Source: Clostridia bacterium
GTDB taxonomy: Bacteria; Bacillota; DSM-521; Neomoorellales; SLTJ01
Direction: 5' to 3'
Length of the DNA: 61,110 bases
Assembly (NCBI GenBank): GCA_024653205.1
Contig: JANLFO010000014.1
Coordinates: forward strand, 1 to 61,110
The stretch's first letter is position 1; each line of letters opens with the position of its first letter. The notes below the pieces were generated by a model, which did no database searches, had not been told where the DNA came from, and worked only from the letters and a program-made list of their open reading frames with translations. Position numbers and translations under genes: made by a program. Of this stretch, positions 4,973 through 25,641 are shown in pieces.

Positions 4973-5299
4973 TTAGCCTACCTCCTCCAGGACGGCAACC
5001 GTCGCCCGGGCCTGCAGGTGAAGTATGCGTTTGACGGTCTCCAGGAGCTCATAGATCTCTGGGTAATTGATGCGGTAGAGCATGCGCAAGCCGTCCTTAC
5101 GCGAGCTCACCAGGTCTTGACGCTTAAGTACCGCCAGGTGCTGCGACACGTTGGCCTGCTCCAGCTCAAGCTGCTCGGTAATCTCGCAGACGCAGCGCTC
5201 ACCACTGCGGAGGTACTCCAGGATACGTAGACGCGTCGGATGAGCCAGCGCCTTCAGAAGATCGGCCTGTAGCTGCAAGGTACGCTCATTAATCGGCAT
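4973..5299 (-). CDS. ArsR/SmtB-family metalloregulator
   Basis: Small winged-helix repressor of 108 residues from the chosen start. The helix-turn-helix region is clear (PTRLRILEYL ... ITEQLELEQANVSQHLAVLKRQDLV). An ERCVCEI segment matches the alpha-3 metal site (ELCVC-type) of ArsR/CadC sensors that bind As(III), Sb(III), Cd or Pb through paired cysteines, so a thiophilic metal or metalloid signal is likely. The ATG at 5299 has AGAAGGA upstream; the longer in-frame start at 5323 has none. It sits alone; the likely targets are its own promoter and perhaps the divergent promoters at 8631-8779, which share an ATATACT-type motif with it. The effector is inferred, not shown. Confidence 0.85.
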   Translation of the reverse strand: MPINERTLQLQADLLKALAHPTRLRILEYLRSGERCVCEITEQLELEQANVSQHLAVLKRQDLVSSRKDGLRMLYRINYPEIYELLETVKRILHLQARATVAVLEEVG

Positions 5300-5515
5300 A
5301 GATCCTTCTCTCCTAAAAGACATTAGTATATAAGTTTTCGCCTATCCTTATTACATTGAAACATAGCTTATACTCGAAGTCAATTAGGTCCCCCACGGAG
5401 GCATTTGCGTTGACCCCGCAATTCTGGTTGGGGTATAGCAGCCATCGAAGCCCGTCTGACGGGCTCTTGCTATTTCGGAGGTTTGTCTTATAACCAACTA
5501 TAGGAACATTATCCA

Positions 5516-8500: not shown

Positions 8501-8630
8501 TAGTTTTCCCTCCTCCAGAACGTCATTGGGCTGGCGGATCGTTTGCTCTGCCGGCGGAAACTGGGGATAACTTAGGGTATTGGGGTCTTGACTTAGACAA
8601 TATATACGAATATACTCATAGATCGAACCT

Positions 8631-8659
8631 ATTGTACCCTGGCCAACTCGCCATGTCAA
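8631..8659 (-). promoter_or_regulatory. Sigma-A promoter of the cysteine-rich gene, with AT-rich dyad
   Basis: TTGACA (8654-8659), 17-base spacer, TACAAT (8631-8636) on the minus strand. Just downstream of the predicted start site, at about 8596-8620, is an AT-rich imperfect dyad (minus strand GAGTATATTCGTATATATTG) that could be a repressor site. Confidence 0.75.
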
Positions 8660-8750
8660 TGCCTTGGCGTCCAGTCTCACCCAGGTCGGGTGCCGACGGC
8701 TAATCCGAGGACGTATAACCAGAGAGGGCGAGAAAGAAGTCCGTTAATGG

Positions 8751-8921: not shown

Positions 8922-9971
8922 ATGTCGGAAATATTGATGGCCGGCCTGCTCGCCCTTAAAGACTACGTGGCTACCCACGTTCTAACCTGCCTGGTTCCGG
9001 CCTTCCTTCTCGCCGGCGCCATGGTCACCTTCATCAATCGGCAGACCATACTTACTTACCTCGGAGAGCGGGCCAGCAAGCTAAAATCCTTCTCCCTAGC
9101 CTCGGTATCTAGCTTCTTCCTGGCCGCCTGCTCTTGTACGGTCATTCCGGTCTCCAGCGGCCTATATTACAGTGGTGCCGGCATCGGGGTGGCTTTCATA
9201 ATCCTGTGGTTGGCACCGGCCTGCAACATACTGGCGCTGACCTACACCGGCACCGTACTTGGAGGCGGAATGGCCCTGGCCAGGATTGCCGCCGCCTTGC
9301 CTATGGCCTTCATAGTTGGCTTCATAATGAGCCTCTGCTTTAGGCCCAGGGAAGACGCAGATTCCGGGCCGGTTTCCGGACCGGAGAGGGAGGCGGTTAT
9401 TGAGCCCAAACTGGTTGTCCTGCTGGTTCTTATCCTGCTCTCCCTCCTTATGCCTAACTACTTGGTCCGAGGAGGGCCCTACCTCCACAAGGTACTGGTG
9501 TGGGCGGTTTTCACGATAATAATGGCAGCATATGCCTATAAGGCGGTTCCCGGCGAAAAGATCCGGGACTGGCTGAGCGAAACCTGGTGGTTCGTCCGCA
9601 TCATCTTCCCTCTCTTGTTGGCCGGGGTTTTTGCCGTAGGCGTGATCGGCAAGGTTCTCCCCCAGGAATGGATTAGTCAGTGGCTAGGCGGATCCGGTCT
9701 GCGCGCCTCTTTCCTGGCCACCATGATCGGGGCCATAACCTATTTTGCCACCATGACCGAGGCCCCCTTTGTGCACACCCTGATGAGCCTGGGCATGGGT
9801 AAGGGCCCCGCGCTCGCCCTCCTGCTTACCGGGCCGGGCTTGAGCCTTCCCAACTGGATAGCCACGGCTAGGGTATTCGGGGTTAAGAAGGCACTGGTGT
9901 ACGTGCCGACCATTGTGGTTTTGGGCACCTTTGTAGGGTGGTTCTTCGGAACCTTTATCTTCCACGGCTGA
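8922..9971 (+). CDS. DUF318 / ArsP-like permease
   Basis: Integral membrane protein of 349 residues with about eight hydrophobic segments. The N-terminal half carries the family core ACSCTVIPVSSGLYYSGAGIGVAFIILWLAPACNILAL, related to the S-C-S/P-x-N motif of PF03773 permeases; the second half has TEAPFVHTLMSLGMGKGPALALLLTGPGLSLPNW. Members include ArsP, an organoarsenical exporter, and many uncharacterised permeases found beside ArsR regulators and small thioredoxins. Here an ArsR gene (4973) and a thioredoxin-like cluster (14641-15890) are both near. Cysteines in the core (ACSC, APAC) could bind a thiophilic substrate. The ATG has AAGGAGG upstream. The substrate is not known. Confidence 0.85.
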   Translation: MSEILMAGLLALKDYVATHVLTCLVPAFLLAGAMVTFINRQTILTYLGERASKLKSFSLASVSSFFLAACSCTVIPVSSGLYYSGAGIGVAFIILWLAPACNILALTYTGTVLGGGMALARIAAALPMAFIVGFIMSLCFRPREDADSGPVSGPEREAVIEPKLVVLLVLILLSLLMPNYLVRGGPYLHKVLVWAVFTIIMAAYAYKAVPGEKIRDWLSETWWFVRIIFPLLLAGVFAVGVIGKVLPQEWISQWLGGSGLRASFLATMIGAITYFATMTEAPFVHTLMSLGMGKGPALALLLTGPGLSLPNWIATARVFGVKKALVYVPTIVVLGTFVGWFFGTFIFHG

Positions 9972-10309: not shown

Positions 10310-11422
10310 TTACTGGCCCGAAAGACTGTAACCGAAGGCCGGAGGATCCACGCCCTGCTGCTTCAGCAGCGACCACATCTCACCCACCGCCTGCCGGGCC
10401 GGCAGGCCCATCGCCTCCCGCTCCTCTATCCACTTGCTCCACAGGGGCTGGAACCTCTGGCCCAACTCGTTCAGGGCGGCCGGCTCCCACTGGACAATGG
10501 TGCCGCCGTGGTCGAGGAAGCACTGCCTGCCCTTTTCCACCAGACCCCCAAAGGTCTTCGCCGCTATGAGCCCGTACTCGTTATTCCGGGCCATCTCGTC
10601 GATTACCGACCTCACGTCCTCGGGCAACCGGTTATAAGTATCCTTGTTCATGAGGAAGGCCAGGATTACCGTGCCCATGGGAGGCTCGGTGGCGTAGCGG
10701 AGCAGCTCACAGGTCTTCCAGGTCCTTATGGTACCGTAATCCTCGAGCGTGGCCCCCACCGTGCCCCTCTCCAGAGCCAGGTAGGACTCCGAGCCGGGGA
10801 TGAACACCGGCACGCCTCCCATGGCGCTCACGCGGTCGTTATAGGCACCGCCGGAAGTCCTGACCTTCAGGCCCTTCATGTCGGCCAGGGTGGTGACCGG
10901 CTTCTTTACGGTAAACAAGGGGTTGCCCATACCCCCTATCAGGAAAAGGACCTTGACGTTCTCGTCGAACGCCTTGTCCAGCAGCCCCTTTTGGTAAAGC
11001 TCAAATGCGGTCTTGGTGGCTATCTCTGCGCTGGGGAAATGGAAGGGGAGGCTGGCAATTTCCGCCATCGGAAATACGCCCTTGGCCTGGAAGGGGACGC
11101 AGAAACCCGCGTCACAAACTCCCTTCACCGTTAGGTCGTAATACTCCGGGGTCTTGCCCAGCGCCTGCGCCCAGGAAAACTCCACCTTAACCTTCCCATT
11201 GGTTTTCTTCTCCAGGTCCGCGGCAAAGGCCTTAATGCCCTCGACGTAAAATCCGCCCTCAGGAGACTCCCAGGTGGCAAAAAGCAGGGTGATCGGTTCT
11301 TGCTTCTCGGCCGGCGCAGGGGTGGTGGTAGTAGTAGAGGTAGACGGCTGGGAGCACCCCGCTAACACCAATCCGCTTGCAATAACTATTGTCAGCATTA
11401 GCAACAAACCGCGCTTGATCAT
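10310..11422 (-). CDS. dctP: TRAP transporter solute-binding lipoprotein (second copy)
   Basis: Extracytoplasmic DctP-family receptor of 370 residues that captures a solute and delivers it to the DctQM membrane subunits. It has a lipoprotein signal with the lipobox LAGC (near residue 22), so it is probably anchored to the outer face of the membrane. The DctP core is visible (KVEFSWAQALGK, VFPMAEIASLPFHFPSAE, KGLKVRTSGG, ALERGTVGATLEDY). It is closely related to the first operon copy (13500-14603), notably in MGGVPVFI and the NNEYGLI segment, but the ligand region differs (GATLEDYGTIRTWKTCE against GQMAGYAPFPQFKWCE). That points to a second related substrate. It lies 137 bases after dctM. The substrate is unknown. 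Confidence 0.9.
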   Translation of the reverse strand: MIKRGLLLMLTIVIASGLVLAGCSQPSTSTTTTTPAPAEKQEPITLLFATWESPEGGFYVEGIKAFAADLEKKTNGKVKVEFSWAQALGKTPEYYDLTVKGVCDAGFCVPFQAKGVFPMAEIASLPFHFPSAEIATKTAFELYQKGLLDKAFDENVKVLFLIGGMGNPLFTVKKPVTTLADMKGLKVRTSGGAYNDRVSAMGGVPVFIPGSESYLALERGTVGATLEDYGTIRTWKTCELLRYATEPPMGTVILAFLMNKDTYNRLPEDVRSVIDEMARNNEYGLIAAKTFGGLVEKGRQCFLDHGGTIVQWEPAALNELGQRFQPLWSKWIEEREAMGLPARQAVGEMWSLLKQQGVDPPAFGYSLSGQ

Positions 11423-11559
11423 TCTTCACTTCCCCCCTTGTGGATTCCGCCCGAATTACTTTCCGGCTCCGGCCTCGTAACTCCCTCGGCAGCAAAATGT
11501 TAGAGTGGATCTAACTCATGGTCTCCTCCTCCTCACCCCCTCTTGGCCGGAGGGCCTGA

Positions 11560-12879
11560 CTATTTAGCGATGCTCGGAAGTAACAAGACTATCTGCGGTA
11601 AGATAATAAGGAGCACGATGATGGCTATGGTCACCACCACGAAGGGCGTAACCCCTCTGAATATCTCCTCTAAGGGCACCTTGGTTACCCCCTGCACTAC
11701 GAAGGCGTTCATCCCTATAGGCGGCGTCAGAAAACCGGTCATGGCCAGCAGGACTACTATGACCCCGAACCATATAAGGTCAAAGCCCAGGGCAGACATG
11801 ATGGGAGCCAAGGTGGGGATGGTCAGCAGGATTATGGCCATGATATCCAGAAACATTCCCAGGAGAAGGTATATGATCAATACGAAACCTAGGATGACGT
11901 AGGGAGAAACACCGAGCGAGCTTATCCACGTCGAGAGCCCGGAAGTAAAGCGGCAAAGGTCAAGAAAGGTGTTGAATATCTGCGCCCCGATTATCAGGGT
12001 CACCACGAAGCCCGTAACCCGCACCGTTTCCTTGGCTGCAGCCAGCAGATTAGCAAGCGAAAGCCTGCGCCTGGCCAGCCCAATTAGGAAGGCCCCGAAG
12101 GCCCCTATGGCGCCGGCCTCCGTGGGCGTGAAGGCGCCCACAAAAAGGCCGCCGATCACCAGGGCGAAAAGCAGGAGCATCCCCCATACGCCCTTCAGCG
12201 AGGCCAGTCGCTCCCTGAGGGTAAAGGATTCGCTCGGTGGGCCGATGTTGGGATTGCGCCGACACAAAACGTAGATGGTCAGGACGTAGGCCCCGGTCAA
12301 AATAAGGCCCGGCAAAACGCCGGCGATGAACAGGTGACCCACGGAGGTTTGGGAAAGAGAACCGTAGATGATCATGGGCACGCTGGGTGGAATAAGTATG
12401 GATACGCCGGCCCCGGCCGCCAGGCACCCGGTGGCGAGCCTATTGTGGTAACCGCGCTTGGCCATTTCCGGGTAGGCGATGGCCCCCATGGTGGCTGCGG
12501 CCGCCGGCGCCGCCCCGCAGCAGGCGGCGAAACCCGCACAGGCCACCATGGTGCCCATGGCCAGCCCTCCGGCGTACTTCCCCATCCAACGGTGTCCGGT
12601 CACAAAGAGATCGCGGCTAATCCCGGCGTAAAAGGCCAAATAACCCATCAGAACGAACAGCGGTACCGGCAGGATCATTTGCGCCGAAGCCCAGGTGAAG
12701 GGAATGCTCCCCAGACTGTATAATCCCACCTCCGGCCCCCGCATTAACATGATTCCGGCCACACCGACCACGGCAAAGGAGATACCGATGGGCACCCCTT
12801 GGAAGATCAAAGCTAGAAGCACTATTAACGCAACTATGCCGGTTATAAGGTTCTCCAAGGCGCGACAACCCCTTTCCAC
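11560..12879 (-). CDS. dctM: TRAP transporter large permease
   Basis: Large membrane subunit (about 12 hydrophobic helices, 439 residues) that moves the solute across the membrane with Na+ or H+. Family segments are GVPIGISFAVVGVAGIML, the glycine-rich CAGFAACCGAAPAAAATMGAIAYPEM and GVLPGLILTGAYVLTIY, and the FTPTEAGAIGAFGAF motif in the middle. The start is uncertain: the GTG at 12879 has a poor ribosome site, and a TTG at 12858 behind GGAAAGGGG is an alternative. It follows dctQ by about 20 bases and is clearly in the same transcript. Confidence 0.92.
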   Translation of the reverse strand: MERGCRALENLITGIVALIVLLALIFQGVPIGISFAVVGVAGIMLMRGPEVGLYSLGSIPFTWASAQMILPVPLFVLMGYLAFYAGISRDLFVTGHRWMGKYAGGLAMGTMVACAGFAACCGAAPAAAATMGAIAYPEMAKRGYHNRLATGCLAAGAGVSILIPPSVPMIIYGSLSQTSVGHLFIAGVLPGLILTGAYVLTIYVLCRRNPNIGPPSESFTLRERLASLKGVWGMLLLFALVIGGLFVGAFTPTEAGAIGAFGAFLIGLARRRLSLANLLAAAKETVRVTGFVVTLIIGAQIFNTFLDLCRFTSGLSTWISSLGVSPYVILGFVLIIYLLLGMFLDIMAIILLTIPTLAPIMSALGFDLIWFGVIVVLLAMTGFLTPPIGMNAFVVQGVTKVPLEEIFRGVTPFVVVTIAIIVLLIILPQIVLLLPSIAK

Positions 12880-12898
12880 CTGCTTCGGTTACAGTAGG

Positions 12899-13390
12899 TT
12901 AACTGGGTTTTAGCTTAGAGATTATCTGCAACCCACACTCTACGCAAACGAAGAAGGAACCAATGGGCACCAGGAACTTGAAGGGATATATCGGAAGCAA
13001 AACCGTCTCGATTAGCCTTCCTTGCTTCAAATCGGCCACAGCGATAAGCGCGGACTGCCACAACATTAGAGCAAAGACCACGAAGGTGAGAGCCAGACCG
13101 GCAATGATGATCGCCTTCTGCAGGTTCCGGGGATAACGCACCAGAAAGAACTCCATTTTCACGTGGGAGTCGGTAGCCTGAACGTAGCCCAGGGCCAGGA
13201 AGACCAGCCCCACCTGTAACATCTGGCTCCACTCCATCGCTCCGGTTATGGGGCTATTGAAAAGGTACCGGCCGATTACGTCGAAGGCACCCAGAAACAT
13301 CATGATTAGCAATAGAGCCACACTGCCCAGGTTTAGGCCCTCTTCCGCCTTCCTCCAGAGGCCTTGACCGTTCGGGGCCTCTTCTGCCAC
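12899..13390 (-). CDS. dctQ: TRAP transporter small permease
   Basis: Small four-helix membrane subunit (163 residues) that partners DctM and the binding protein. The helices are around GSVALLLIMMFLGAFDVIGRYLF, MLQVGLVFLALGYVQ, AIIIAGLALTFVVFALMLW and PIYPFKFLVPIGSFFVCVECGLQI. The GTG at 13390 is chosen because AAAGGAGG precedes it by seven bases; the upstream ATG at 13411 sits against the intercistronic hairpin and has no ribosome site. Confidence 0.88.
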   Translation of the reverse strand: MAEEAPNGQGLWRKAEEGLNLGSVALLLIMMFLGAFDVIGRYLFNSPITGAMEWSQMLQVGLVFLALGYVQATDSHVKMEFFLVRYPRNLQKAIIIAGLALTFVVFALMLWQSALIAVADLKQGRLIETVLLPIYPFKFLVPIGSFFVCVECGLQIISKLKPS

Positions 13391-13412
13391 CGTTTTTCCT
13401 CCTTTCTTCATG

Positions 13413-13452
13413 CCTGCTGGTCCCGGTCGCTTTGGCTACCGGGACCAGCAGG
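13413..13452 (-). promoter_or_regulatory. Intercistronic hairpin between dctP and dctQ
   Basis: A perfect 15-bp stem (13413-13427 with 13438-13452, ten-base loop) without a T-tract. It sits after the first binding-protein gene. Such stems usually protect or partly terminate the transcript so that the binding protein is made in excess over the membrane subunits. Confidence 0.75.
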
Positions 13453-13499
13453 ATTACTCGTTTCGGTCACCGCGACTCAGCTCTCAGGCTTTCCTCAGC

Positions 13500-14603
13500 T
13501 CAGCCTTGCGGAATGTACCCGTAGGCGGGATCATCCACTCCGAGTTGCTTCAGGGCCCGATACATCTCGTCTAGCGCCTTCTTGGCCGGCAGGCCTTTGG
13601 CCTCGCGCTCGCTGATCCACTTCTCCCATACCGCCTTATTCTTCTCGCTCAGTTCCTGCAGGGCGGCCGGCTCCCATTTGATTATCTGGGCGCCGTGATC
13701 GATTAGGCACTGTTTGCCTGCCGCGGCCATCCGGTCGAGATTCTTGGCCCCGATGAGGCCGTACTCGTTATTGGCCGCCATTTCGTCGATTACCTGGCGG
13801 ACATCCTCAGGCAACTTGTTGTAAGAGGCTTCGTTCATAAAGAAGGCCCAGTTCCCGGCGCCCATTCCGGGCTCGGTGGCGTAGCGGGTAAGCTCGCACC
13901 ACTTGAACTGCGGGAAGGGGGCGTACCCGGCCATCTGCCCGTCCACCGTGCCCCGCTCCAAGGCGAGATAGACCTCGGCACCGGAAATAAAGACCGGCAC
14001 TCCGCCCATGGCCTCCACGCGCGGGTTCTGCTGCCCGCCGGAAACCTTGATCTTCAGGCCTTTGAAATCCTGAAGGGTACGCACGGGCTTCTTGGTGGTA
14101 GTCAGCGGGTCTCCCTGGCCCGCGGCAATAAACAGCAGCTTCACTCCCTTGTTATAGGCCTCGTCTAAGTACCCTTTCTTGTACACCTCATACATGGCCT
14201 GCGTAGCTATTTCCGCGGAGGGAAGCTTAAAGGGAAGAGTGGTCATCTCCGCCAGTGGAAATACCCCGGGCACCATGAAGGGCGCGCAGAAGGCGGCGTC
14301 GCACACACCGCGCGCCACAAGATCATAATACTCCTGGATCTTGCCTAACGCTTGAGCATAGGAGTATTCTACCTTCACCTTTCCGTTAGTCTTCTGCTCC
14401 AGGTCCCGGCCGAAGGCCTTGACCGCTTCCACCATAAAACCCGCGTTCTCCGACTCAAAGGTAGCAAAGAGCAACTTAATCGGCTCCTGGGTTGCCGCCT
14501 GGCCCGAAGGCTGTTGCTGGGCGGGTTGGCTTCCACAGGCGCTCAGAACCGGTACACTGATGACTAACACTGCCACCAGGATCAGCCACGTTTTTCCTCG
14601 CAT
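13500..14603 (-). CDS. dctP: TRAP transporter solute-binding lipoprotein (first copy)
   Basis: DctP-family receptor of 367 residues with a lipoprotein signal (lipobox LSAC near residue 22). Core segments: PIKLLFATFESENAGFMVEAVK, VEYSYAQALGK, VFPLAEMTTLPFKLPSAE, LKIKVSGGQQN, MGGVPVFISGAEVYLALERGTVDGQMAGY. The ATG has an AAGGGGGG ribosome site. It is the first TRAP gene in the transcript, about 37 bases after the CxxC-less thioredoxin-like gene, so this transport system and the thioredoxin cluster are almost certainly co-expressed. Substrate unknown; the link to small redox proteins argues for a sulfur-, selenium- or metalloid-containing or otherwise reducible solute, which is inference. Confidence 0.92.
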   Translation of the reverse strand: MRGKTWLILVAVLVISVPVLSACGSQPAQQQPSGQAATQEPIKLLFATFESENAGFMVEAVKAFGRDLEQKTNGKVKVEYSYAQALGKIQEYYDLVARGVCDAAFCAPFMVPGVFPLAEMTTLPFKLPSAEIATQAMYEVYKKGYLDEAYNKGVKLLFIAAGQGDPLTTTKKPVRTLQDFKGLKIKVSGGQQNPRVEAMGGVPVFISGAEVYLALERGTVDGQMAGYAPFPQFKWCELTRYATEPGMGAGNWAFFMNEASYNKLPEDVRQVIDEMAANNEYGLIGAKNLDRMAAAGKQCLIDHGAQIIKWEPAALQELSEKNKAVWEKWISEREAKGLPAKKALDEMYRALKQLGVDDPAYGYIPQG

Positions 14604-14640
14604 GTTCTACCCCCCTTAGACCATCGCTGATAGTCAAAAG

Positions 14641-14895
14641 CTATACCAACAGGTTGCGAATTGCAGCCGCTACCGTTTCCCTACTAGGGCAAAAGCCCTC
14701 GATCTTAACCATCTCATCTACCACTATGGCCGGCGTTAGGGTGAGGCTGTACTCATCAAACAGTTCATTCGGTTCGCGGTAAACCACTAGCTCAACCTGT
14801 TCACCAAATTCAGCCGTAACTTCTTGTAAAAGCCGCTCCACCTCCGCCGAGGCTTCATTAGCCCCCAGAAAGGCCTCAACCTTGATCGCGGTCAC
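14641..14895 (-). CDS. Thioredoxin-fold protein lacking the CxxC motif
   Basis: Small protein of 84 residues, homologous to the three upstream thioredoxin-like proteins: it keeps the cis-proline segment LTPAIVVDEMVKIEGFCPSRETV, nearly the same as the CTPAIVIEG...IEGICPSRET of the gene just upstream. Where the CxxC should be (GDPPCQDC in its neighbour) it has GANEAS, so it cannot do dithiol chemistry in the usual way; one cysteine (GFCPSRE) remains and is conserved in the neighbour. It starts with GTG overlapping the upstream stop (GTGA), with GGGAGGT before it. It may be a binding or scaffold partner of the active paralogues. Function unknown. Confidence 0.8.
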   Translation of the reverse strand: MTAIKVEAFLGANEASAEVERLLQEVTAEFGEQVELVVYREPNELFDEYSLTLTPAIVVDEMVKIEGFCPSRETVAAAIRNLLV

Positions 14896-15155
14896 CTCTG
14901 TACCTCCCTTACTGCTCGATCTAGGGTCTCTCGACTAGGGCATATCCCCTCAATTTTCAGTCTTCCTTCAATGACGATGGCCGGGGTACAGGACAGGTTG
15001 TAGGCTCGGAACTTCTCCATCGCCTCGGCGCCAAAGAGTTTAATTACTTCTACCCGTCCCTGGCGCTCGGCGGCGTATTCGTCCGCCAGCGTGAAGGCCT
15101 TCAGGCAGTCCTGGCATGGCGGGTCCCCGCTAAAGAATTCCACCTTAGGTATCAC
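14892..15155 (-). CDS. Thioredoxin-like protein (CQDC)
   Basis: Thioredoxin_3-type redox protein of 87 residues. The active-site CQDC is near residue 14, followed by the cis-Pro motif SCTPAIVIEG and a further pair of cysteines (one in NLSCTPA and one in GICPSRET). GTG start; the 3' end overlaps the next gene by four bases, so translation is coupled. It is expected to shuttle electrons or thiol-bound ligands in the cytoplasm; the partner is not known. Confidence 0.85.
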   Translation of the reverse strand: MIPKVEFFSGDPPCQDCLKAFTLADEYAAERQGRVEVIKLFGAEAMEKFRAYNLSCTPAIVIEGRLKIEGICPSRETLDRAVREVQR

Positions 15156-15157
15156 CG

Positions 15158-15421
15158 TTAGCCCCCCAGTTCCTTTTTTACGGCCCGCTCGATGTCCGCC
15201 TCGGACAATACCTTGCCCGAGGACAGCACCTTGTCGTTAATCAGCACCGCCGGAGTTATCAGCGCCCCATACTTCCTGCCCTCGGGCGATACGGCGTCCA
15301 GTTTCAGCACCTCAATCTTTCCCTCGTACTTCTGCGCTACCTTTTTGGCCCGCTTTTCTACTTCTTTACACTTGGAGCATGGAGGTGTGGGTCCGATTAT
15401 CTTTATGGTGACCATTCCCAC
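15158..15421 (-). CDS. Thioredoxin-like redox-active disulfide protein (CSKC)
   Basis: Glutaredoxin/thioredoxin_3-type protein of 87 residues resembling archaeal and bacterial 'redox-active disulfide protein 2'. The active site is PPCSKC near residues 14-18, and the cis-Pro motif is ITPAVLIND. It has a GTG start behind AAGGGGG and is two bases from the downstream gene. This family is often found beside DUF318 permeases and ArsR regulators, both present a few kilobases away. Confidence 0.87.
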   Translation of the reverse strand: MGMVTIKIIGPTPPCSKCKEVEKRAKKVAQKYEGKIEVLKLDAVSPEGRKYGALITPAVLINDKVLSSGKVLSEADIERAVKKELGG

Positions 15422-15431
15422 TGGCGCCCCC

Positions 15432-15890
15432 TTAGTTCTGTCCCTTCGGCTCCAACTCGCTTCTGATCCACTCCTGGAATTCCTCGGCTTTGGGTACGTA
15501 TCCCACCGCCTTGACTTGGCCGTTCACCACTACCACCGGCGTCATCAGGTAGCCGCGTTCCTGAGCTTTTTGCTTGATGGGCGTAAGCTTGTTCTCAATC
15601 TCGTCCATCAAGGGCTTTACCGCCGCCTCGGCATCGGGCTGTTGTTCCAGTACCTGGTCTATCTGCCCCAGCAACTTCTCTATGCCTTCATGGTCGTGCT
15701 CCACGTTCTCCATCTCCGCAATAGTATGGCCGCCTTCCACGTTTCCGTACCGTTTTGCCTCCTCGGACTCAGTAGATATTCTCCTGACCGCTATGCCTTC
15801 GCCAAAGCGGCTTGCTACCTGTTGGGCTACCTTGAAGGTGGTCTTACAGCGGATGCAGGGTGGTTCGGGCCCTATTACGATAATTTCCAT
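15432..15890 (-). CDS. Extended thioredoxin-like protein (CIRC)
   Basis: 152 residues: a thioredoxin_3 fold (GPEPPCIRCKTTFKVAQQVA at the N-terminus, cis-Pro MTPVVVVNGQVKAVGYVP near the C-terminus) with an acidic insert of about 60 residues between them (about 50-110, HTIAEMENVEHDHEGIEKLLG and a helical stretch). The insert contains several His and Glu and may bind a metal or partner. GGGAGGG precedes the ATG. It is second in the operon, 67 bases after the DUF169 gene. Confidence 0.82.
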   Translation of the reverse strand: MEIIVIGPEPPCIRCKTTFKVAQQVASRFGEGIAVRRISTESEEAKRYGNVEGGHTIAEMENVEHDHEGIEKLLGQIDQVLEQQPDAEAAVKPLMDEIENKLTPIKQKAQERGYLMTPVVVVNGQVKAVGYVPKAEEFQEWIRSELEPKGQN

Positions 15891-15957
15891 GAAGGGGTCC
15901 CTCCCTTTGAAAGTTAATAATGAGAATGTTAAAGGGTTACGCCTCGGAGACTGGTGA

Positions 15958-16716
15958 TTAGGCGTTTTGCTCCATCTCGCGTTGCAGATCCTCGTGTAGT
16001 TTTATCGCGGCCTGCATGAACTTTTCCTTGCCTAAATTATAGGCCGGCAGAACCCACTGCATTTGCTGTAGGTTACGGGTAATAATGGGGATCCAGTTAA
16101 AGGGAATGGTGATGAGTACCTGGCCCTCGGGATACACTTGGCGACCTTTCATCCCGAAGCCCAGTCCAGTGGTGATAAAATTGACCTTGCCCGACCGGAA
16201 CGGGTAGGCGAAAAGCCAAGCGCATGCCAGAACATTGGCCGTCTTGCTTTCGTACAGTTCCCCCGTGGAATAGGTCATAGCCCTAAGGACGATTTCCGCC
16301 TGACTGGGGGAAGCCAACACAAACAGCAGGTCGGGATCAAAAGTAAGGTTATCCAGAGTAGCGAAGACTACGTAATTTACTACACCCTTAGAAAACTTGG
16401 GTACATCAATATAGACCCTGGAATTGGCCCGCGGCTCCTCAAAAATGCCCCACCGCTGACCGATCAGACCAGCCTCGGCAAACGGGTGGATGTCCTCCCA
16501 GCCCAGAGGGATGGAACCAACGCAGTTTTCGTTGTCCCGGGTAGCATAAAAGGGTACGCGGCGATCCTGAGCCTCTCTGATCATCTCGCACAGGGCCATG
16601 GCCTTATCCAGCTTCTCAATGCCCTCCGGCTTGCTCAGCGTGAATTTTACGGCTACCGGCGGCAGAGAGAAGTCCAACCCCTGAAATACCTTAAGTTCCT
16701 CTTGAACCCGCGACAC
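15958..16716 (-). CDS. DUF169 protein
   Basis: Uncharacterised protein of 252 residues from the DUF169 family, common in strict anaerobes and methanogens. Visible features: FSLPPVAVKF at the N-terminus, a cysteine at ALCEMI and another in NENCVGSIPLGW, VYIDVPKF and an aromatic-rich C-terminal half; no signal or membrane segment. It begins with GTG after AAAGGAGGT and is the first gene of the operon that continues with four thioredoxin-like proteins and the TRAP transporter. DUF169 has no established reaction. Its position suggests it handles the transported compound. Confidence 0.85.
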   Translation of the reverse strand: MSRVQEELKVFQGLDFSLPPVAVKFTLSKPEGIEKLDKAMALCEMIREAQDRRVPFYATRDNENCVGSIPLGWEDIHPFAEAGLIGQRWGIFEEPRANSRVYIDVPKFSKGVVNYVVFATLDNLTFDPDLLFVLASPSQAEIVLRAMTYSTGELYESKTANVLACAWLFAYPFRSGKVNFITTGLGFGMKGRQVYPEGQVLITIPFNWIPIITRNLQQMQWVLPAYNLGKEKFMQAAIKLHEDLQREMEQNA

Positions 16717-16902: not shown

Positions 16903-16931
16903 ATTATAGAGACGGTCTGACCGGGTGTCAA
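16903..16931 (-). promoter_or_regulatory. Perfect consensus promoter of the DUF169-TRAP operon
   Basis: TTGACA (16926-16931), 17 bases, TATAAT (16903-16908): both hexamers match consensus exactly. Such a strong promoter usually needs a repressor; an AT-rich stretch with short inverted repeats follows at about 16873-16900. The start codon is about 180 bases downstream. Confidence 0.85.
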
Positions 16932-17086: not shown

Positions 17087-18763
17087 GTGGCGCACAAGAT
17101 CGTGATCGTCGGTGGGGTGGCCGCCGGACCGAAAGTGGCCGCCCGGGCCCGCCGCCTGGACCCGGAAGCGGAGATCACCATCGTGGAGCGGGGAGGTGTT
17201 ATCTCTTACGCCTCCTGTGGCCTGCCGTTCTACCTGGCCGGCGAGGTGAAGGACTACGGCCAACTTTTCGCCACCGCCTACGGGGTACGGCGAGACGCGG
17301 ACTACTTCTGGAGCGAACGCCAGGTAAGGGTGCTCACCCATACCGAGGCCATCGCCGTGGATCGCGCCCGCAAGGAGGTCCGGCTGCTGGACCATGCGCA
17401 GGGCAAGGAATTCTCGCTTGCCTACGACCATTTGGTTCTGGCCACCGGGTCGGAGCCGCTTACTCCACCCGTTGAAGGCCTGGATCTCAAGGGCGTACAC
17501 CGCCTCAACCGGCCGGAGGACGCCGAAGCCCTGGCCGCGGGTATGCAGGGGGCGCGGAGCGCCGTTGTCATCGGCGCGGGAATGATCGGCCTTGAAGCAG
17601 CCGACGCCCTCCGGAGGCGGGAAATGACAGTTACCCTGGTAGAGGTCAAAGACCAGATTCTACCCGGCATGCTGGATGCCGACTTGGCCGCTCTATTGGC
17701 CAGGTGGCTGGCCGACCGAGGAACCAACGTACTGCTAAGCGAAAAGGTGCTGCGGGTGGAAGGCGATGGCCGCGTCCGGGCGGTAGTGACCGCCAGCACC
17801 ACCCTGCCTGCCGATCTCGTGGTCTTGGCCACCGGGGTGCGGCCCAACGTCGGCCTGGCCAGGGCGGCAGGGCTCGCCCTGGGAGAAACCGGCGCCGTAG
17901 CCGTAAACGAATACCTCCAGACCAGCGATCCCGACATTTACGCCCTGGGCGACTGCGTGGAGAACGTGCACCGGGTTTCCGGCAGGAAAGTCTATCTGCC
18001 CTTGGCCTCCATTGCCGCCCGGCAGGGACGGGTGGTAGGCGATAACCTCGCCGGTATTAGGACCCGCTTTCCGGGTGTGCTGGGCACGGCAGTACTGCGG
18101 GTCCTGGGTGTAAACGTGGGCCGGACGGGTTTGGGAGAGGCCCAGGCCGCCGAGGCCGGATTGGACGCGACCTCCACCCTTATCGGCGTCAACGACCGGA
18201 CCCACTACCACCCCGACCAGGCAATGGTTATTCTCAAGCTGGTCACCGAGGCCAAGACCGGCCGCCTCTTGGGGGCCCAGGGGATCGGGCCGGGCGAGGT
18301 GGTGAAGCGTATCGACGTGCTGGCAACGGCCATCGCCTACGGTGCCAAGACAGAAGACCTGGCCCTGGTGGACCTGGGGTACGCCCCGCCTTTCAACACG
18401 CCACTGGACCCGATCCACCATGCGGTGAATACGGTCCGGAACAAAGACGCCGGCATTGCGCGAACCGTTTCCGCCCGAGAACTCCGGGAGAAGCTGGCCC
18501 GTCGCGATGACTTCGTGCTCCTGGACGTACGGACTCTACCGCAGCACCGCATGCGGCATATAAGAGCCGACAATACCGTGGTCATACCCCTCGGGGAGCT
18601 TCGTCGCCGGCTGGAAGAACTGCCTCGGGAAAAAGAAATCGTAGTCTACTGCGCCGCAGGCGTGCGCAGCTACGAGGCCCAGCGCATCCTGGAAGGAGCG
18701 GGGTTCCGGAGGGTGAGCTTTTTGGAAGGCGGGATGGCGGCCTGGCCGTACGAGGCCGAATGA
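17087..18763 (+). CDS. CoA-disulfide reductase / NAD(P)H oxidoreductase with rhodanese domain
   Basis: Flavoprotein of 558 residues. The FAD motif IVIVGGVAAG starts at residue 5. The single active-site Cys is C44 in SYASCGLPF, the hallmark of CoA-disulfide reductases and NADH oxidase/polysulfide reductases. An NAD-binding motif (VIGAGMIGLEAADALR) follows. The C-terminus (about 460-558) is a rhodanese domain with active loop CAAGVRS. Such CoADR-RHD fusions reduce CoA disulfides, polysulfide or sulfur-sulfur bonds with NAD(P)H. GTG start behind GGGAGGT. It is divergent from the thioredoxin-TRAP operon, supporting a shared thiol or sulfane-sulfur theme. It appears to be a single-gene transcript. 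Confidence 0.93.
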   Translation: MAHKIVIVGGVAAGPKVAARARRLDPEAEITIVERGGVISYASCGLPFYLAGEVKDYGQLFATAYGVRRDADYFWSERQVRVLTHTEAIAVDRARKEVRLLDHAQGKEFSLAYDHLVLATGSEPLTPPVEGLDLKGVHRLNRPEDAEALAAGMQGARSAVVIGAGMIGLEAADALRRREMTVTLVEVKDQILPGMLDADLAALLARWLADRGTNVLLSEKVLRVEGDGRVRAVVTASTTLPADLVVLATGVRPNVGLARAAGLALGETGAVAVNEYLQTSDPDIYALGDCVENVHRVSGRKVYLPLASIAARQGRVVGDNLAGIRTRFPGVLGTAVLRVLGVNVGRTGLGEAQAAEAGLDATSTLIGVNDRTHYHPDQAMVILKLVTEAKTGRLLGAQGIGPGEVVKRIDVLATAIAYGAKTEDLALVDLGYAPPFNTPLDPIHHAVNTVRNKDAGIARTVSARELREKLARRDDFVLLDVRTLPQHRMRHIRADNTVVIPLGELRRRLEELPREKEIVVYCAAGVRSYEAQRILEGAGFRRVSFLEGGMAAWPYEAE

Positions 18764-18870: not shown

Positions 18871-19677
18871 TCAGCTGTACAGGCCGCTGCGGTAGGCACG
18901 CAGGTACCGGCCGCAGAAACGATCCTTCCCCAACAGGGCCGCCGAGGCGTAGAACAGCCGCATCAGGTCTTTATCCGTCGGGTCCAACAGATAGGCGTCC
19001 ATGCCGCAGGTCATGGTCTGAACCAGGAAGGTCCGGTTGAGGAAGCGGCGGCCGGGCAGGCCGAAAGACACGTTGCTGAGCCCGCATATGAGGTGCACCC
19101 GGGGAAAGCTCTCTTTGAAGCGGCGGATGAACTCCAGGACCTCGACTCCGTGCTGGTCGTTGATGGATACCGGTTTCACCAGGGGATCGAGGTAAATGTC
19201 ATCCTCTGCTACCCCCGCGCCACGCAGGCTCTCTACCAGCCACCTGGCGTTGCGCTCGCGCTCCTCCACGCTGTTGGGCATACCCTCATCGCTGATGCAC
19301 AAGCCCACGATTTTGGCCTTATACTTGAGGACCAGGGGAAGCACGTCCTGGTAACGCTTCTGCTCGGCGGTAATAGAATTTATCATGGGGGTGGGCGTAG
19401 AAGCCAGGGCCAGACCGGCCTCCAGAGCCTGGGGGTTGGGGCTGTCGATGCAAAGCGGCAAATCCGTTACCCCCCTGACCACCGTTACCAGCCATTCCAT
19501 AGCCTCTACTTCTTCACGGTCCGTTCCTATGTCTCCGCAGTTGACGTCCAGGTACTGTATCCCGGCCTCGGCCTGCCTGCGGGCCAGATCTTGAATGAAG
19601 GCTTCGTCCCGTGCCAACACCGCTTTCTTCACCGATTCGCGACTGGTATTAATGAGTTCACCGACCAGTAAGTACAT
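18871..19677 (-). CDS. MeTr-like pterin-dependent methyltransferase (AcsE/MtgA type)
   Basis: About 268 residues, the size of AcsE. It has the TIM-barrel pterin-binding pattern: LLVGELINTSRE at the N-terminus, LDVNCGD, the LCIDSPNPQALEAGL and MINSITAE segments, YLDPLVKPV and GLSNVSFGLPGRRFLNRTFL. Such proteins transfer a methyl group between a corrinoid protein and tetrahydrofolate. It lacks adjacent CODH/ACS genes, so a catabolic demethylation role (MT-II) is more likely than the Wood-Ljungdahl step. The ATG at 19677 matches the family N-terminus; a GTG at 19683 is possible. It follows the corrinoid activator gene by 70 bases. Confidence 0.88.
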   Translation of the reverse strand: MYLLVGELINTSRESVKKAVLARDEAFIQDLARRQAEAGIQYLDVNCGDIGTDREEVEAMEWLVTVVRGVTDLPLCIDSPNPQALEAGLALASTPTPMINSITAEQKRYQDVLPLVLKYKAKIVGLCISDEGMPNSVEERERNARWLVESLRGAGVAEDDIYLDPLVKPVSINDQHGVEVLEFIRRFKESFPRVHLICGLSNVSFGLPGRRFLNRTFLVQTMTCGMDAYLLDPTDKDLMRLFYASAALLGKDRFCGRYLRAYRSGLYS

Positions 19678-19747
19678 GACCACACCACCCGCCTATAGTA
19701 TTTTACTGTTCGGAGCTTACCATAGAGCCGATTTTGTCGTCAATTCC

Positions 19748-21724
19748 CTACGAACCCGCCCGTCCGGCCAGGTCCCCGGTCAATACGGGTAACCCCAGCA
19801 TCCGGCGAGCATGGGGAAAAGCGTCGCGGGCATGGGGGAAGGCCATGGCGGCCAGGAAATGCTTCTGGAAATCCGGCTCCGCGGCCGTTTCCACAAATTC
19901 CACCTGTTGGGCCACCTGCACGGCCTCGGTGCGCTTACTGCGGTCAAACAGGGCTATCTGCGCCCCGTCACCGGCGGCGTTACCTACCGCCACTATGCGC
20001 TCCGGTTCACAGTCCGGTATCATGCCTATCATCAGCGCCCTCTCCCGGTCCAGATAGGTTCCAAAGGCGCCGGCAAGTACGATGCGGTCCACCTTGTCTA
20101 CGCCCAGTTTCTGCATCAGAAATCGCGCCCCCACGTAAAGGGCAGCCTTGGCCAGCTGCACGGCCCGTACGTCCTTTTGGGTAACGGTGATGTCCTGCCC
20201 CAGGGCGGTTTCGGGAGCCCAGGCCAGGACGAACTCGGGCTGGCCGTCTTCGCCCTGGCGGATTCGGCTCGTCGCCAGCCGACGGTTAATCCGACCGTCG
20301 GGAAGCAGCACGCCCGCCCTAAACATCTCCGCCACCGCGTCCACTATGCCCGAGCCGCATATTCCCCGGGCTCCGGTATGGCCTATCTCGGGATACCACT
20401 CCTCCCGCCCTATGACCTTGTAGCCGACCTCCAGGGTGTGGCTATCGATCCTTACCTTTTCTATGGCTCCCGGCGCGGCCCGCATCCCGAAACGGATCTG
20501 CGCCCCTTCCAAGGCGGGGCCGGTAGCGCAGGACGTACACAGCAGCCGCCGCCGGTTGCCCAGGACTACCTCGCCGTTGGTTCCGATGTCGATTATCAGC
20601 CAGATCTCGTCTTCTTGGCGGTAGGGTTCCTCGGCCAGCAGAACGGCCACGTTATCCGCTCCTACGAACGCTGCTTCCAGAGGCAACAGGTGAGCTTTGG
20701 CTCCCGGCGCGATTTCGATGCCCAGATCGCGGGCCCTGAGATCCAGCGGGCCCTTTACCACAGGAGCAAAAGGAGCCTGCCCCACAAAACGGGGGTCCAG
20801 CCCACAGAGGATATGGTGCATGACCGTATTCCCTACCAGAACAATATCCAGCACCTCTTCGGAGCTGATACCCGCTTCTGCCACCATTTCGCGGATCAGC
20901 CCGTTTACGGCCTGCACCACCGCGTTCTGCATCTCTTCCAGACCCGAAGGACGGGAGGCGGCATACCCGACGCGCGACAGGATGTCCTCTCCGTAGCGCA
21001 CCTGGGGGTTCATGGCCGACTTGCGGCCGACGGTCACCCCGCGCCCCAAATCGCAGAGGTAGGCGGCTAGGGTGGTGGTACCCACGTCCACGGCCACCCC
21101 GTAGGCCAGTTCTTTCCGACCGGGCTCTACGGCAATGATTTCCCGGTCCATCCATACGGTTACCGTAACCTTCCAGTTTTCCCGCCGCAGCGCCTCCGGC
21201 AGGGAGAGCAGGGCTGCGTAATCGATCTTCAGCTCCCCGCCCAGCCCGTATTGTGCTCGCAGCCCGTCCCGCAGCCGCTCGCAATCATCGCGAGGATCCC
21301 GAAGAGTCGGCGGACTCAGCTCGAGATAGTACTTGCGGACCGCCGGGTCAAGCCTGAAGGCCCTTTCCCGTCCGGTTTCCAGTATGACCTGGGGCGCAAC
21401 GCGGCTCTTTTCGGGCACGTAAACCAGAACGTCGCCCTCGACCCGCGCCCGGCAGGCCAGGCGGTAGTCGTCTTGCAGCTCCCGGGCCTCAAGTTTTTGC
21501 TTCTCTTCTTCGGTAGGGGGCGTAAGGTGTGCGGGAGTGGAGGTAATGCCCAGCTTCGGGAAGAACCCGCTCTCAATCCGGAGCTTGCACTTGCCGCAGG
21601 TACCTGCGCCACCGCAGGCGCTTTCCAGCCCTACCCCAAGCTGCTGCGCCGCCTCCAGGAGGGTGGTGCCGGCCTTCACCTCACCTCGCCGACCGGAAGG
21701 CTGAAAGATTACCGTGTACGCCAT
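19748..21724 (-). CDS. Corrinoid activation protein (RACo/DUF4445)
   Basis: About 658 residues. The N-terminus is a [2Fe-2S] ferredoxin domain (C-x5-C-x2-C in SACGGAGTCGKC, then the fourth Cys in LACRAR). A linker follows, then the ASKHA-fold DUF4445 domain (VDVGTTTLAAYL, IIDIGTNGEVVLGN, and LAGAFGTYLDRERAL near the C-terminus). These proteins reduce inactive Co(II) corrinoid to Co(I) using ATP, keeping methyl-transferring corrinoid proteins active. ATG at 21724 follows AGGAGGT by six bases; an upstream in-frame start at 21763 would overlap the GGDEF gene. It is co-transcribed with the MeTr-like gene. Confidence 0.92.
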   Translation of the reverse strand: MAYTVIFQPSGRRGEVKAGTTLLEAAQQLGVGLESACGGAGTCGKCKLRIESGFFPKLGITSTPAHLTPPTEEEKQKLEARELQDDYRLACRARVEGDVLVYVPEKSRVAPQVILETGRERAFRLDPAVRKYYLELSPPTLRDPRDDCERLRDGLRAQYGLGGELKIDYAALLSLPEALRRENWKVTVTVWMDREIIAVEPGRKELAYGVAVDVGTTTLAAYLCDLGRGVTVGRKSAMNPQVRYGEDILSRVGYAASRPSGLEEMQNAVVQAVNGLIREMVAEAGISSEEVLDIVLVGNTVMHHILCGLDPRFVGQAPFAPVVKGPLDLRARDLGIEIAPGAKAHLLPLEAAFVGADNVAVLLAEEPYRQEDEIWLIIDIGTNGEVVLGNRRRLLCTSCATGPALEGAQIRFGMRAAPGAIEKVRIDSHTLEVGYKVIGREEWYPEIGHTGARGICGSGIVDAVAEMFRAGVLLPDGRINRRLATSRIRQGEDGQPEFVLAWAPETALGQDITVTQKDVRAVQLAKAALYVGARFLMQKLGVDKVDRIVLAGAFGTYLDRERALMIGMIPDCEPERIVAVGNAAGDGAQIALFDRSKRTEAVQVAQQVEFVETAAEPDFQKHFLAAMAFPHARDAFPHARRMLGLPVLTGDLAGRAGS

Positions 21725-21743
21725 CTCGGCACCTCCTGCGGCT

Positions 21744-24038
21744 TCAGTTACCGCGTCGACCACCGGCCGTGCCCGCCTGCTGCTCCAGCCTTTTCTGCGA
21801 GGCCTCGCGGTTGGCGGCCTTTTCCTGGTACATCTTCTCGTCTGCTCTTCGGTAGATCTCCTCCAGGGGTTCCTCGCCCGCCTGACACGTAGCCCAGCCC
21901 ACGGACAAGAGAAGCGGGACTTCCTTCCTCAGGGCGTTGTAGGCCTCGGCCGCGCGCTGGATTCGGTGGACGATTTCCCGCGCAGCTCGCTCGTCCGTCC
22001 GCGGGAGCAAGACGGCAAATTCGTCCCCGCCTACCCGGGCCAGTATGTCCGAACGGCGCAAGGTGCTCTTCAATACTTCGGCGCAGGCCACCAGCATTTC
22101 GTCCCCCTTGGCGTGACCCCAAGTATCGTTAATGATCTTGAGCCCGTCCATATCCGCTACTAGAATTGTCAAGGGAAATTCCCTGCCGGCGCCAAGCCTT
22201 TCCATTTCCTCTCGGAAGAAAGCCCGGTTGTACAGCCCGGTGAGTGAATCGTGGGAGACAAGGTAACGCAGCTCTTCCTCGTAGCGCCGCCTCTCGGTAA
22301 CGTCGAGAATGCTTACTACCGCTCCCCCAACCTTGCCCTTTTCATCCCTGACGGGCGAGGCGCTTACCTGGCAGTACCTGCCTTCCTCGTAACTCAGTTC
22401 GGCGGTACACGGCAGACCGGTATCCATGGCAGAAAGAGCCGGGCAGCCTTCGCAAGGCGCCTCATGCCTTTGCAGAACCTGGTAACACTTGGCACCGATA
22501 AGATAGTAGGGATCGGCACGGGCTGCCTCGGCGGCGGCCCGGTTAGCCCATATGATGTGCAGTTCCCGGTCCACAAAGATTACCCGTTCGGTTAAGGTGT
22601 CGAGGATCAGGGACTTCTCGGCCGTAAGCCTTTCCAACTCCTCTTCCAGAACTCGCCTTGGAGTAATATCGTTCAGGAAATGGAGGACGGCCGGGCGGCC
22701 TTCCCAATCCACTGCCACCGAGTTGGCCTCCGCCCACCTCACCTCTCCGCCCTTGGTCAGAATGCGGAAGCGGAATCCCAGCAGAGCCTCCCCAACAGCC
22801 AAAAGGTGGGCGTACTCCCGGCGGACGGCATCCAGATCCTCCGGGTGAACCAGTTCCCCGAAGTTCCGACCTATCATTTCCCCCTCGGTGTACCCGGTAT
22901 ATCGTAGGGCCGCACGGTTGACCAACCGAATCCGCCCGTCCTGTACCACCACAATGCCTTCGGCGGCGTTTTCCACCACCTCTTGATACCGCTTTTCCCG
23001 TTCGCGCAGAGCTCCCTGGTACTCCTCGATACGCCACAGCATTCGGCCCAGCTCCTTGGACAGCACGGCCAGTTCGTCGTTGCCGCCTACCTCCAGGAAC
23101 TCCCTGGCCAGCCCGGGGTCAGGAGCGGCCTCCGCCACCTTTCGGGTCAGCCGGGTGAGGCGGCTCAATACGCTGCGGTCCAGCCATACCCAGGTGATGG
23201 CAAAAGAAGCCCCCACGGCCAAAAGCAGTAATAACTGCAAGATCCGACGGGTAAGCCTCACGATCCTGAGGGCGGTACGCTCGGAGTTGACCTGTAGGAC
23301 CAGTCGCGGTTGCCCGAATACGTCGCGCATGGCCACCAGACTGGCCGTTTCCTCTTCGGAGACCGGGAGGGTATAGAACACCTGTCCGGTAGCCAGTTGC
23401 CCTCGAGGCGGAAGACCTGCTACCTCCTCGGCGCTAAAGGCGCGTACCGAGAGGGTCAGCCGGGTCAGCGAGGCCAGGCGCTCGACCAATTCGGCTTCGA
23501 ACAGTCTGGCCATAACCACCACTCCCTGAGGAGAGGAACCCGCCGTTGCAGGAATGGGAACCGCGGCCACCAGTACCGGGCCCACCGAAGTTACTGCCAC
23601 TCCTTTTAGCTCGCCGCTTTCTGGTCGCGTCCACAGGATTTGACTAGGGAGGCTCAGTTCTTGCCCGGTACGGGGATCCAGACCGCGCGCGTAGACCACC
23701 CGGCCCCAGGCATCAATCAGAACCAGAAACTCAATGTCCAGACGGGAGAACACGCTCTGGTCAAGGGCAACCTCCAGTTGCCCCGGATTACCACTCTGCA
23801 CGTAAGCGGCCACATCCCCACGCGCGGCCCAATCCTTAGCCACGGTCTCCAGGGCGGAGGTCTCTTTTTCCAAAGCGAGGAACGCGCGCTCCAGGTCTCT
23901 TTTGGCGGTCTCCTGTTCGATGAGCCCGACCATTCGCTCGGCGGCTCGGTCAAAGAGAAAGAAGAAAAGGAAAGAACCTAAGGCGAAGACCCATACTACC
24001 GCCATTACCGCCTTGATTCTAAGCCTCAACCGTCCCAC
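21744..24038 (-). CDS. Membrane CHASE-PAS-PAS-GGDEF diguanylate cyclase
   Basis: 764 residues. TM1 is at about 9-30, a CHASE4-like extracytoplasmic domain runs to about 265, then TM2 (LLLLLAVGASFAITWVW) and a HAMP-like linker. A PAS domain follows (about 345-465), then a second PAS with a CYQVL...CEGCP cysteine cluster, and a C-terminal GGDEF domain. The GGDEF motif is intact (VGGDEFAVL), and RRSD five residues upstream matches the RxxD inhibitory site, so active, feedback-inhibited c-di-GMP synthesis is expected. The cysteines in PAS2 could sense redox or a metal. It ends 20 bases before the RACo start and could be in one transcript with it. Start (GTG 24038 or TTG nearby) is uncertain. Confidence 0.9.
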   Translation of the reverse strand: MGRLRLRIKAVMAVVWVFALGSFLFFFLFDRAAERMVGLIEQETAKRDLERAFLALEKETSALETVAKDWAARGDVAAYVQSGNPGQLEVALDQSVFSRLDIEFLVLIDAWGRVVYARGLDPRTGQELSLPSQILWTRPESGELKGVAVTSVGPVLVAAVPIPATAGSSPQGVVVMARLFEAELVERLASLTRLTLSVRAFSAEEVAGLPPRGQLATGQVFYTLPVSEEETASLVAMRDVFGQPRLVLQVNSERTALRIVRLTRRILQLLLLLAVGASFAITWVWLDRSVLSRLTRLTRKVAEAAPDPGLAREFLEVGGNDELAVLSKELGRMLWRIEEYQGALREREKRYQEVVENAAEGIVVVQDGRIRLVNRAALRYTGYTEGEMIGRNFGELVHPEDLDAVRREYAHLLAVGEALLGFRFRILTKGGEVRWAEANSVAVDWEGRPAVLHFLNDITPRRVLEEELERLTAEKSLILDTLTERVIFVDRELHIIWANRAAAEAARADPYYLIGAKCYQVLQRHEAPCEGCPALSAMDTGLPCTAELSYEEGRYCQVSASPVRDEKGKVGGAVVSILDVTERRRYEEELRYLVSHDSLTGLYNRAFFREEMERLGAGREFPLTILVADMDGLKIINDTWGHAKGDEMLVACAEVLKSTLRRSDILARVGGDEFAVLLPRTDERAAREIVHRIQRAAEAYNALRKEVPLLLSVGWATCQAGEEPLEEIYRRADEKMYQEKAANREASQKRLEQQAGTAGGRRGN

Positions 24039-25566: not shown

Positions 25567-25641
25567 CTGCACGCCTCCTCTCTAGTTTTATACATTTTAA
25601 ATACTATTTCAACATGGGGATTCCTCCCCATGCCCCCACCC

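Follow-up and report, generated by a model that had tools for sequence, protein, structure and literature searches.

A mosaic operon in a Clostridia bacterium links a DUF169 protein and four thioredoxin-fold proteins to a two-receptor TRAP transporter

What would a tripartite ATP-independent periplasmic (TRAP) transporter with two receptors do beside a DUF169 protein and four thioredoxin-fold proteins? The question is raised by a 61,110-nucleotide stretch of DNA from a Clostridia bacterium (positions 1 to 61,110 of contig JANLFO010000014.1, assembly GCA_024653205.1), called the window here, in which nine minus-strand genes at 10310-16716 encode all of these parts. We find that the operon is a mosaic whose parts have separate histories. 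As to its function, we favour import of an anion followed by cytosolic, thiol-dependent processing of a heteroatom-bearing compound over plain carboxylate uptake with bystander thioredoxins. This reading is tentative, with a probability of about 0.4, and the substrate class and every catalytic role in it are what we infer from the evidence below. The locus is of wider interest because DUF169 proteins are widespread in anaerobes and have no known function.

Nine genes behind a perfect promoter

Read 5' to 3', the operon encodes DUF169, TrxA, TrxB, TrxC, TrxD, DctPa, DctQ, DctM and DctPb (Table 1), and the expected domains all score above their Pfam cut-offs. The successive intergenic gaps measure 67, 10, 2, -4, 37, 88, 19 and 137 bases, in agreement with the overlap and small gaps described by an earlier sequence-only reading of this DNA. 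No terminator-like site was found within these gaps, and from the spacing we infer that the nine genes are co-transcribed. The promoter ahead of DUF169 consists of TTGACA at 16931-16926, a 17-base spacer and TATAAT at 16908-16903. It is the sole 12/12 sigma-70 match within 8.7 kb, a length in which base counting predicts ~0.003 perfect sites by chance. No RNA family was found in the leader upstream of DUF169. The nine-gene array behind a perfect promoter, as first proposed, is borne out in positions, strand, domains and consensus match.

The composition of the operon is uneven. The DUF169 and thioredoxin genes have a G+C content of 0.52-0.56, against 0.655 for the neighbouring reductase gene and 0.60 for the window, and among 21 further genomes of the class none was found with a relative of this DUF169 at E 1e-20. 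Together, the low G+C and the missing class relatives fit acquisition from elsewhere.

Table 1 Features of the operon and its divergent and upstream neighbours (window coordinates)
Feature	Position	Strand	Evidence or remark
Perfect-consensus sigma-70-type promoter, TTGACA-17-TATAAT	16903..16931	-	12/12 consensus match
DUF169 (COG2043) protein, 252 aa	15958-16716	-	Pfam E 3e-27; alignment; AF2 model
TrxA, CIRC motif	15432-15890	-	Pfam Thioredoxin_3 E 2e-11; Foldseek
TrxB, Thioredoxin_3, CSKC motif; orthologue in corrinoid clusters	15158-15421	-	Pfam; tree
TrxC, Thioredoxin_3, CQDC motif; counterpart in corrinoid clusters	14892-15155	-	Pfam; genome searches; tree
TrxD, Thioredoxin_3 without CxxC; orthologue in corrinoid clusters	14641-14895	-	Pfam; tree
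DctPa, TRAP receptor lipoprotein	13500-14603	-	Pfam; alignments
DctQ, TRAP small membrane subunit	12899-13411	-	Pfam E 2e-22
DctM, TRAP large membrane subunit	11560-12879	-	Pfam E 6e-88
DctPb, second TRAP receptor, canonical Arg present	10310-11422	-	Pfam; alignments
Neighbour: CoA-disulfide-reductase-like flavoprotein, C-terminal rhodanese domain	17087..18763	+ (divergent)	Pfam/NCBIfam models
Neighbour: methyltetrahydrofolate:corrinoid methyltransferase, second copy	18871..19683	-	Separate from CODH/ACS locus
Neighbour: RACo/AcsV-type corrinoid activase	19748..21763	-	61% identical to trio-cluster RACo

A thioredoxin trio shared with corrinoid clusters

TrxB, TrxC and TrxD are an orthologous, collinear module of conserved corrinoid clusters in other genomes. 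When 396 genomes of the phylum were searched, TrxC relatives, 45-48% identical, turned up in only two other genomes. Across 100 genomes of the order to which these two belong, such relatives occur in seven genomes from four genera and two families, the previous two included. A search of 297 genomes from the phylum of a Desulfobacula locus, made without a positive control, found none. The three genes follow in the same order in the four tree loci and, as judged by reading, in two others; the seventh locus (L136) has TrxC and a weaker second match after it, with no separate TrxB gene seen. In the tree, the window TrxB groups with its counterparts with support of 95/90 and TrxD with 97/95, and TrxC as a single clade is not rejected (p 0.50).

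The clusters that house the trio (L122, L123, L132-L136) span ~16 kb each and come from two families of the same phylum. They contain a CobW GTPase, an HTH protein, corrinoid proteins, an MtaA/CmuA-type methyltransferase, further thioredoxin-like proteins and often an aquaporin-family gene. Next come TrxB-C-D, a HUIPC-family thioredoxin, a TSCPD protein, two small thioredoxin-like genes and an SMC-like ATPase, followed by CobW, a corrinoid protein and RACo, with MtrH after them in stretches long enough to include it. Each cluster totals three corrinoid proteins, two CobW GTPases and about eight thioredoxin-like proteins. The trio and its order are what the window operon has in common with them; they lack DUF169 and TRAP genes, and the operon lacks MtaA and selenocysteine (Sec).

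In every genome examined, the two small thioredoxin-like genes carry an in-frame TGA (UGA) at the active-site cysteine, giving UAAC and UASG (L122:12075-12134 and L122:12374-12433, with counterparts in L123, L132, L133, L134, L135 and L136). A SECIS-like hairpin of eight pairs lies 27 nt downstream of the TGA, with 97.7% of cells paired. Three of its pairs are altered on both sides, and the covariation score exceeds all 500 shuffles. The in-frame TGA and the covarying hairpin together make these genes probable selenoproteins. Their products resemble the HUIPC model below its cut-off. Ordinary calling of open reading frames (ORFs) hides both genes by starting the ORFs after the TGA.

Relatives of the MtaA type that occur in type 1 mlp clusters have been tied to methyl-sulfur and selenide chemistry, and for one of them methyl transfer to selenide has been reported (PMC10418091). 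These clusters, which combine MtaA-like methyltransferases with a corrinoid protein and Ram/RACE (PMC10418091), appear to be the nearest published analogue of the trio's other home. Both have an MtaA/CmuA-type enzyme, corrinoid proteins and, in the trio clusters, RACo, whereas in the trio clusters a single MtaA-type gene stands next to the trio, with no demonstrated Mlp2 and Mlp3 pair, and MtrH, CobW and many thioredoxin genes are added. The window operon has no methyltransferase, and the type 1 mlp combination of Mlp2 and Mlp3, a corrinoid protein and Ram/RACE does not occur in it. The corrinoid home of the trio suggests thiol chemistry that involves methyl-sulfur, -selenium or metalloid compounds. 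Small redox proteins, a CxxC-less member included, evidently travel as a fixed module with two homes, one an import operon and the other a conserved cluster that encodes a corrinoid methyltransferase and likely selenoproteins, and the second home narrows the substrate question to testable classes.

The same evidence could be read as an accessory system for methyl transfer, in which a methylated sulfur, selenium or metalloid compound would be imported, its methyl group passed through corrinoid proteins, RACo and the methyltetrahydrofolate methyltransferase (18871-21763, 45425-47424) to the Wood-Ljungdahl pathway, and the demethylated product accepted by the thioredoxins. A RACo of the trio-cluster subfamily and a corrinoid methyltransferase do lie 2-5 kb upstream of the operon (Table 1). 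Because the CODH/ACS genes on contig C2 have a methyltransferase of their own, the window gene is an additional copy. A UroD-type methyltransferase and a corrinoid protein are encoded at 45425-47424, but this methyltransferase shows no more than a distant likeness to MtaA (31 bits) and has LIV transporters as neighbours. With no methyltransferase in the operon itself and no counterpart of the trio-cluster MtaA-type enzyme in the genome at E 1e-30, we consider this reading improbable.

The DUF169 protein and its neighbourhoods

Scoring 96 bits against a gathering cut-off of 27, the first gene product belongs to DUF169/COG2043 (PF02596). Cys43, Cys65 and Cys165 are invariant in an alignment of 79 homologues and may form a redox or metal site. 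The AlphaFold (AF2) model is confident, with a mean predicted local distance difference test (pLDDT) score of 96.7, and the protein has no match in the PDB by sequence and none by fold search at E <= 0.001. DUF169 is a tractable target in view of these cysteines, of a confident model that matches nothing in the PDB and of its recurring placement in transport and catabolic operons.

The genome (2.46 Mb in 51 contigs, of which ~0.94 Mb was read as stretches) holds four DUF169 genes, of which the other three share 41-48% identity with the window copy across the alignment. It also carries one broken remnant, a frame-disrupted DUF169-like gene (L042:8550-9000, contig C6) that adjoins an ArsR-ArsP pair. 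Three of the four intact genes, in the window and on contigs C25 and C41, adjoin TRAP genes, and the fourth adjoins a LIV-type receptor instead. The chance of such adjacency in three of four is ~1e-4, taken against ~776 kb of the genome not picked for DUF169 or TRAP, where a DctM match occurs in three stretches.

We surveyed 67 related loci in other genomes, mainly of Dehalococcoidia, for genes within 3 kb of DUF169. TRAP genes occur at 10 of them, aldehyde:ferredoxin oxidoreductase at 11, SDR genes at 16 and LIV transport genes at 6, and acyl-CoA dehydrogenases are also among the neighbours. A within-locus control supports SDR (p 0.0005), the oxidoreductase and a nameless family, c1, as DUF169 neighbours. 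The c1 family is small, has no Pfam match and recurs beside DUF169, SDR and TRAP genes in Dehalococcoidia (for example L116:5190-5669 and L109:9519-9980).

Taken alone, the DUF169-TRAP part would point to organic-acid catabolism. The operon would then be an ordinary carboxylate uptake system, one of several in the genome that serve aromatic or organic-acid catabolism, with DUF169 as a catabolic component and the thioredoxin genes a fortuitous insertion of general redox role, a possibility that we take seriously. The paralogues of the same genome are in keeping with it, as they sit beside TRAP genes and a fumarate-reductase-type flavoprotein, SnoaL/SDR genes or a LIV-type receptor; so are the oxidoreductase, SDR and acyl-CoA dehydrogenase genes near distant DUF169 copies, and a window rich in acyl-CoA dehydrogenases, CoA ligases, thiolase and LIV transporters. 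An insertion by chance, however, sits poorly with four thioredoxin-fold genes placed at small gaps between DUF169 and the first receptor, three of them an intact conserved module, and simple carboxylate binding sits poorly with the first receptor itself, as described next.

A TRAP transporter with two receptors

Two DctP matches (E 9e-45 and 6e-41), DctQ and DctM are encoded together. As in the DctP-DctQ-DctM family exemplified by SiaPQM, the three subunits score above their Pfam cut-offs and DctPb keeps the conserved arginine. The window differs in having two receptors that flank a single QM pair, a lysine in DctPa, and cysteines common to the receptors.

DctPa and DctPb are 58% identical. 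In alignments, the position of the ligand-binding Arg147 of SiaP is occupied by Arg in DctPb and Lys in DctPa. The arginine is present in 96.8% of DctP receptors, which use it for carboxylate, and its replacement by Lys in SiaP abolished high-affinity binding (PMC4646407); its loss from DctPa argues against ordinary carboxylate uptake. Three further receptors of the genome (C29, C41 and L169) likewise lack the canonical arginine, so the change in DctPa is not unique. DctPa and DctPb share four non-lipobox cysteines, and both have a GVCDAxFC cysteine pair that does not occur in any of the 15 other receptors whose aligned sequence covers this position. Their nearest solved relatives include 4p56, 4n6d and 5im2. 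Of these, 4p56 and 5im2 bind aromatic acids, a hint towards carboxylate uptake rather than a test of it. No close relative of DctPa was found in 397 further genomes from the phylum (E 1e-60) or, in a search that had no positive control, in 47 DUF169-bearing genomes (E 1e-50); plasmid matches are at most 32% identical.

Thioredoxin-fold proteins with and without CxxC

TrxC and TrxD are 44% identical and share the motif IEGxCPSRET. CxxC is lost in TrxD, as the sequence-only reading had stated of this fourth copy, with the correction that TrxD retains one cysteine, in the CPSRE motif that it has in common with TrxC. TrxC has extra cysteines, the third placed two residues ahead of the cis-Pro and another in CPSRE. 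Sec codons were considered for the window thioredoxin genes and rejected, as none is present; TrxD simply lacks CxxC.

TrxA has a thioredoxin fold interrupted by a helical insert of ~50 residues ahead of the cis-Pro half, in a model that is only moderately confident (pLDDT 77). Its best Foldseek match is ArsD (probability 1.0, E 2e-3). Against the Pfam ArsD model it reaches E 7e-4 and 20.4 bits, below the cut-off of 27, and it carries the CIRC motif alone, without the ArsD cysteine motif. TrxA is predicted to have an ArsD-like shape, and the likeness lies in the fold only. A single full-length relative (32% identity) stands alone beside unrelated genes in a distant genome of the phylum, and a search of 251 genomes from the phylum to which the Dehalococcoidales locus L045 belongs, again without a positive control, found none. 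None of TrxA-D reaches the cut-off of the MTH895/ArsE family (TIGR00412), the best being TrxB with 47.6 against 62 bits.

The resemblance of TrxA to ArsD, by fold and weakly by sequence, the sub-threshold ArsE matches and the broken DUF169-like gene beside ArsR-ArsP would suit a stress or detoxification operon in which DUF169 and the thioredoxins scavenge a metalloid, ArsD/ArsE-like, and the TRAP genes form a separate downstream transcript. Such an operon is very improbable here: the ArsD cysteine motif is missing from TrxA, the operon contains no ArsA, ArsB or ArsR, importers are unexpected in resistance operons, and every gap is below 140 bases with no terminator found within it.

Sec-assisted organometallic (SAO) and Tso operons, compared through a review (PMC13188914) and NCBIfam models only, also have small thioredoxin-like proteins sharing an operon with other genes, and SAO operons a transporter as well. 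TrxA-D show weak similarity to the SaoT, TsoC, TsoX and HUIPC models, far below cut-off, as are all their NCBIfam matches. Unlike those operons, the window has a TRAP rather than an ABC transporter, no Sec codon or in-frame TGA, and no MerB-like lyase was found in it.

A tentative function for the mosaic operon

In the import and thiol-processing reading that we favour, the TRAP transporter would bring in one or two related organic anions through receptors of differing selectivity, with Arg in one and Lys in the other at the anion clamp. The three-cysteine DUF169 protein would act on the substrate in the cytosol, with TrxB and TrxC as CxxC reductants supplying electrons and TrxD as a partner for binding or transfer that has no redox role. 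TrxA may be an ArsD-like carrier, and the thioredoxin set may hold a heteroatom or thiol group once it is released. An organo-sulfur, -selenium or metalloid compound would be the likeliest substrate, since the same TrxB-C-D is elsewhere an integral part of corrinoid methyltransferase clusters that also encode probable selenoproteins. The proposal made from sequence alone, import and thiol handling of a sulfur, selenium or metalloid compound, stays plausible on this new ground, though not on the ArsR and ArsP genes once cited for it.

A bolder version would see DUF169 as the central enzyme of a new pathway that imports an organo-sulfur, -selenium or metalloid anion and cleaves it by thiol chemistry, with redox-dead TrxD as dedicated carrier and the same thioredoxin relay serving the corrinoid methyltransferase/selenoprotein clusters; this we judge unlikely.

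Several observations weigh against the favoured reading. The full DUF169, thioredoxin and TRAP set was seen once only among everything searched. Thioredoxins of the window types occur at 0 of the 67 DUF169 loci, no TRAP or DUF169 genes were found near the trio in the seven other genomes, and TRAP enrichment around the distant DUF169 loci is not significant in the within-locus control (10 vs 8.7, p 0.24). Elsewhere the neighbours of DUF169 suggest the breakdown of carboxylates or aromatics rather than sulfur or selenium chemistry, and ordinary carboxylate uptake is a serious rival. The operon ORFs, all complete, contain no in-frame TGA or Sec codon, and in a genome without the trio-cluster MtaA-type enzyme the trio cannot do exactly the same job.

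The first three of these counts, with class-mates that lack close DUF169 relatives, also leave a conserved DUF169-thioredoxin-TRAP pathway unsupported. The sequence-only reading had named rare adjacency in other genomes as its own refutation, and the neighbourhood survey shows just this for the three together, while the parts recur separately.

Other genes of the window

The divergent reductase had been taken for a CoA-disulfide/polysulfide-type enzyme. It is CoA-disulfide-reductase-like with a rhodanese tail and falls below the TIGR03385 equivalog cut-off (406.5 vs 578.8 bits). The rest of the window encodes LIV transporters, CoA ligases, acyl-CoA dehydrogenases, thiolase and aldehyde:ferredoxin oxidoreductase, and these farther genes look like aromatic or O-demethylating metabolism. 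Beside the UroD-type methyltransferase, within 44033-47424, a LIV-type receptor (44042-45190) is 72% identical to the contig C10 receptor that adjoins a DUF169 paralogue.

An ArsR gene (4973-5323) lies ~5 kb beyond the operon end, and a DUF318/ArsP permease gene (8922-9971) lies outside the operon on the plus strand. Between them is a transposase gene split into two reading frames (5516-6782). Both had been drawn into the system by the earlier interpretation; we rejected them as members on position, on the opposite strand of the permease and on the insertion element beyond which ArsR lies. A second ArsR-ArsP set is present on contig C6. Upstream of a threonyl-tRNA synthetase-like gene (2672-4594) is a T-box leader (4638-4860). 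Two split-Soret cytochrome c-like proteins, both below the equivalog cut-off, are encoded at 7742-8680 and 24718-25572, the first with an extra N-terminal domain.

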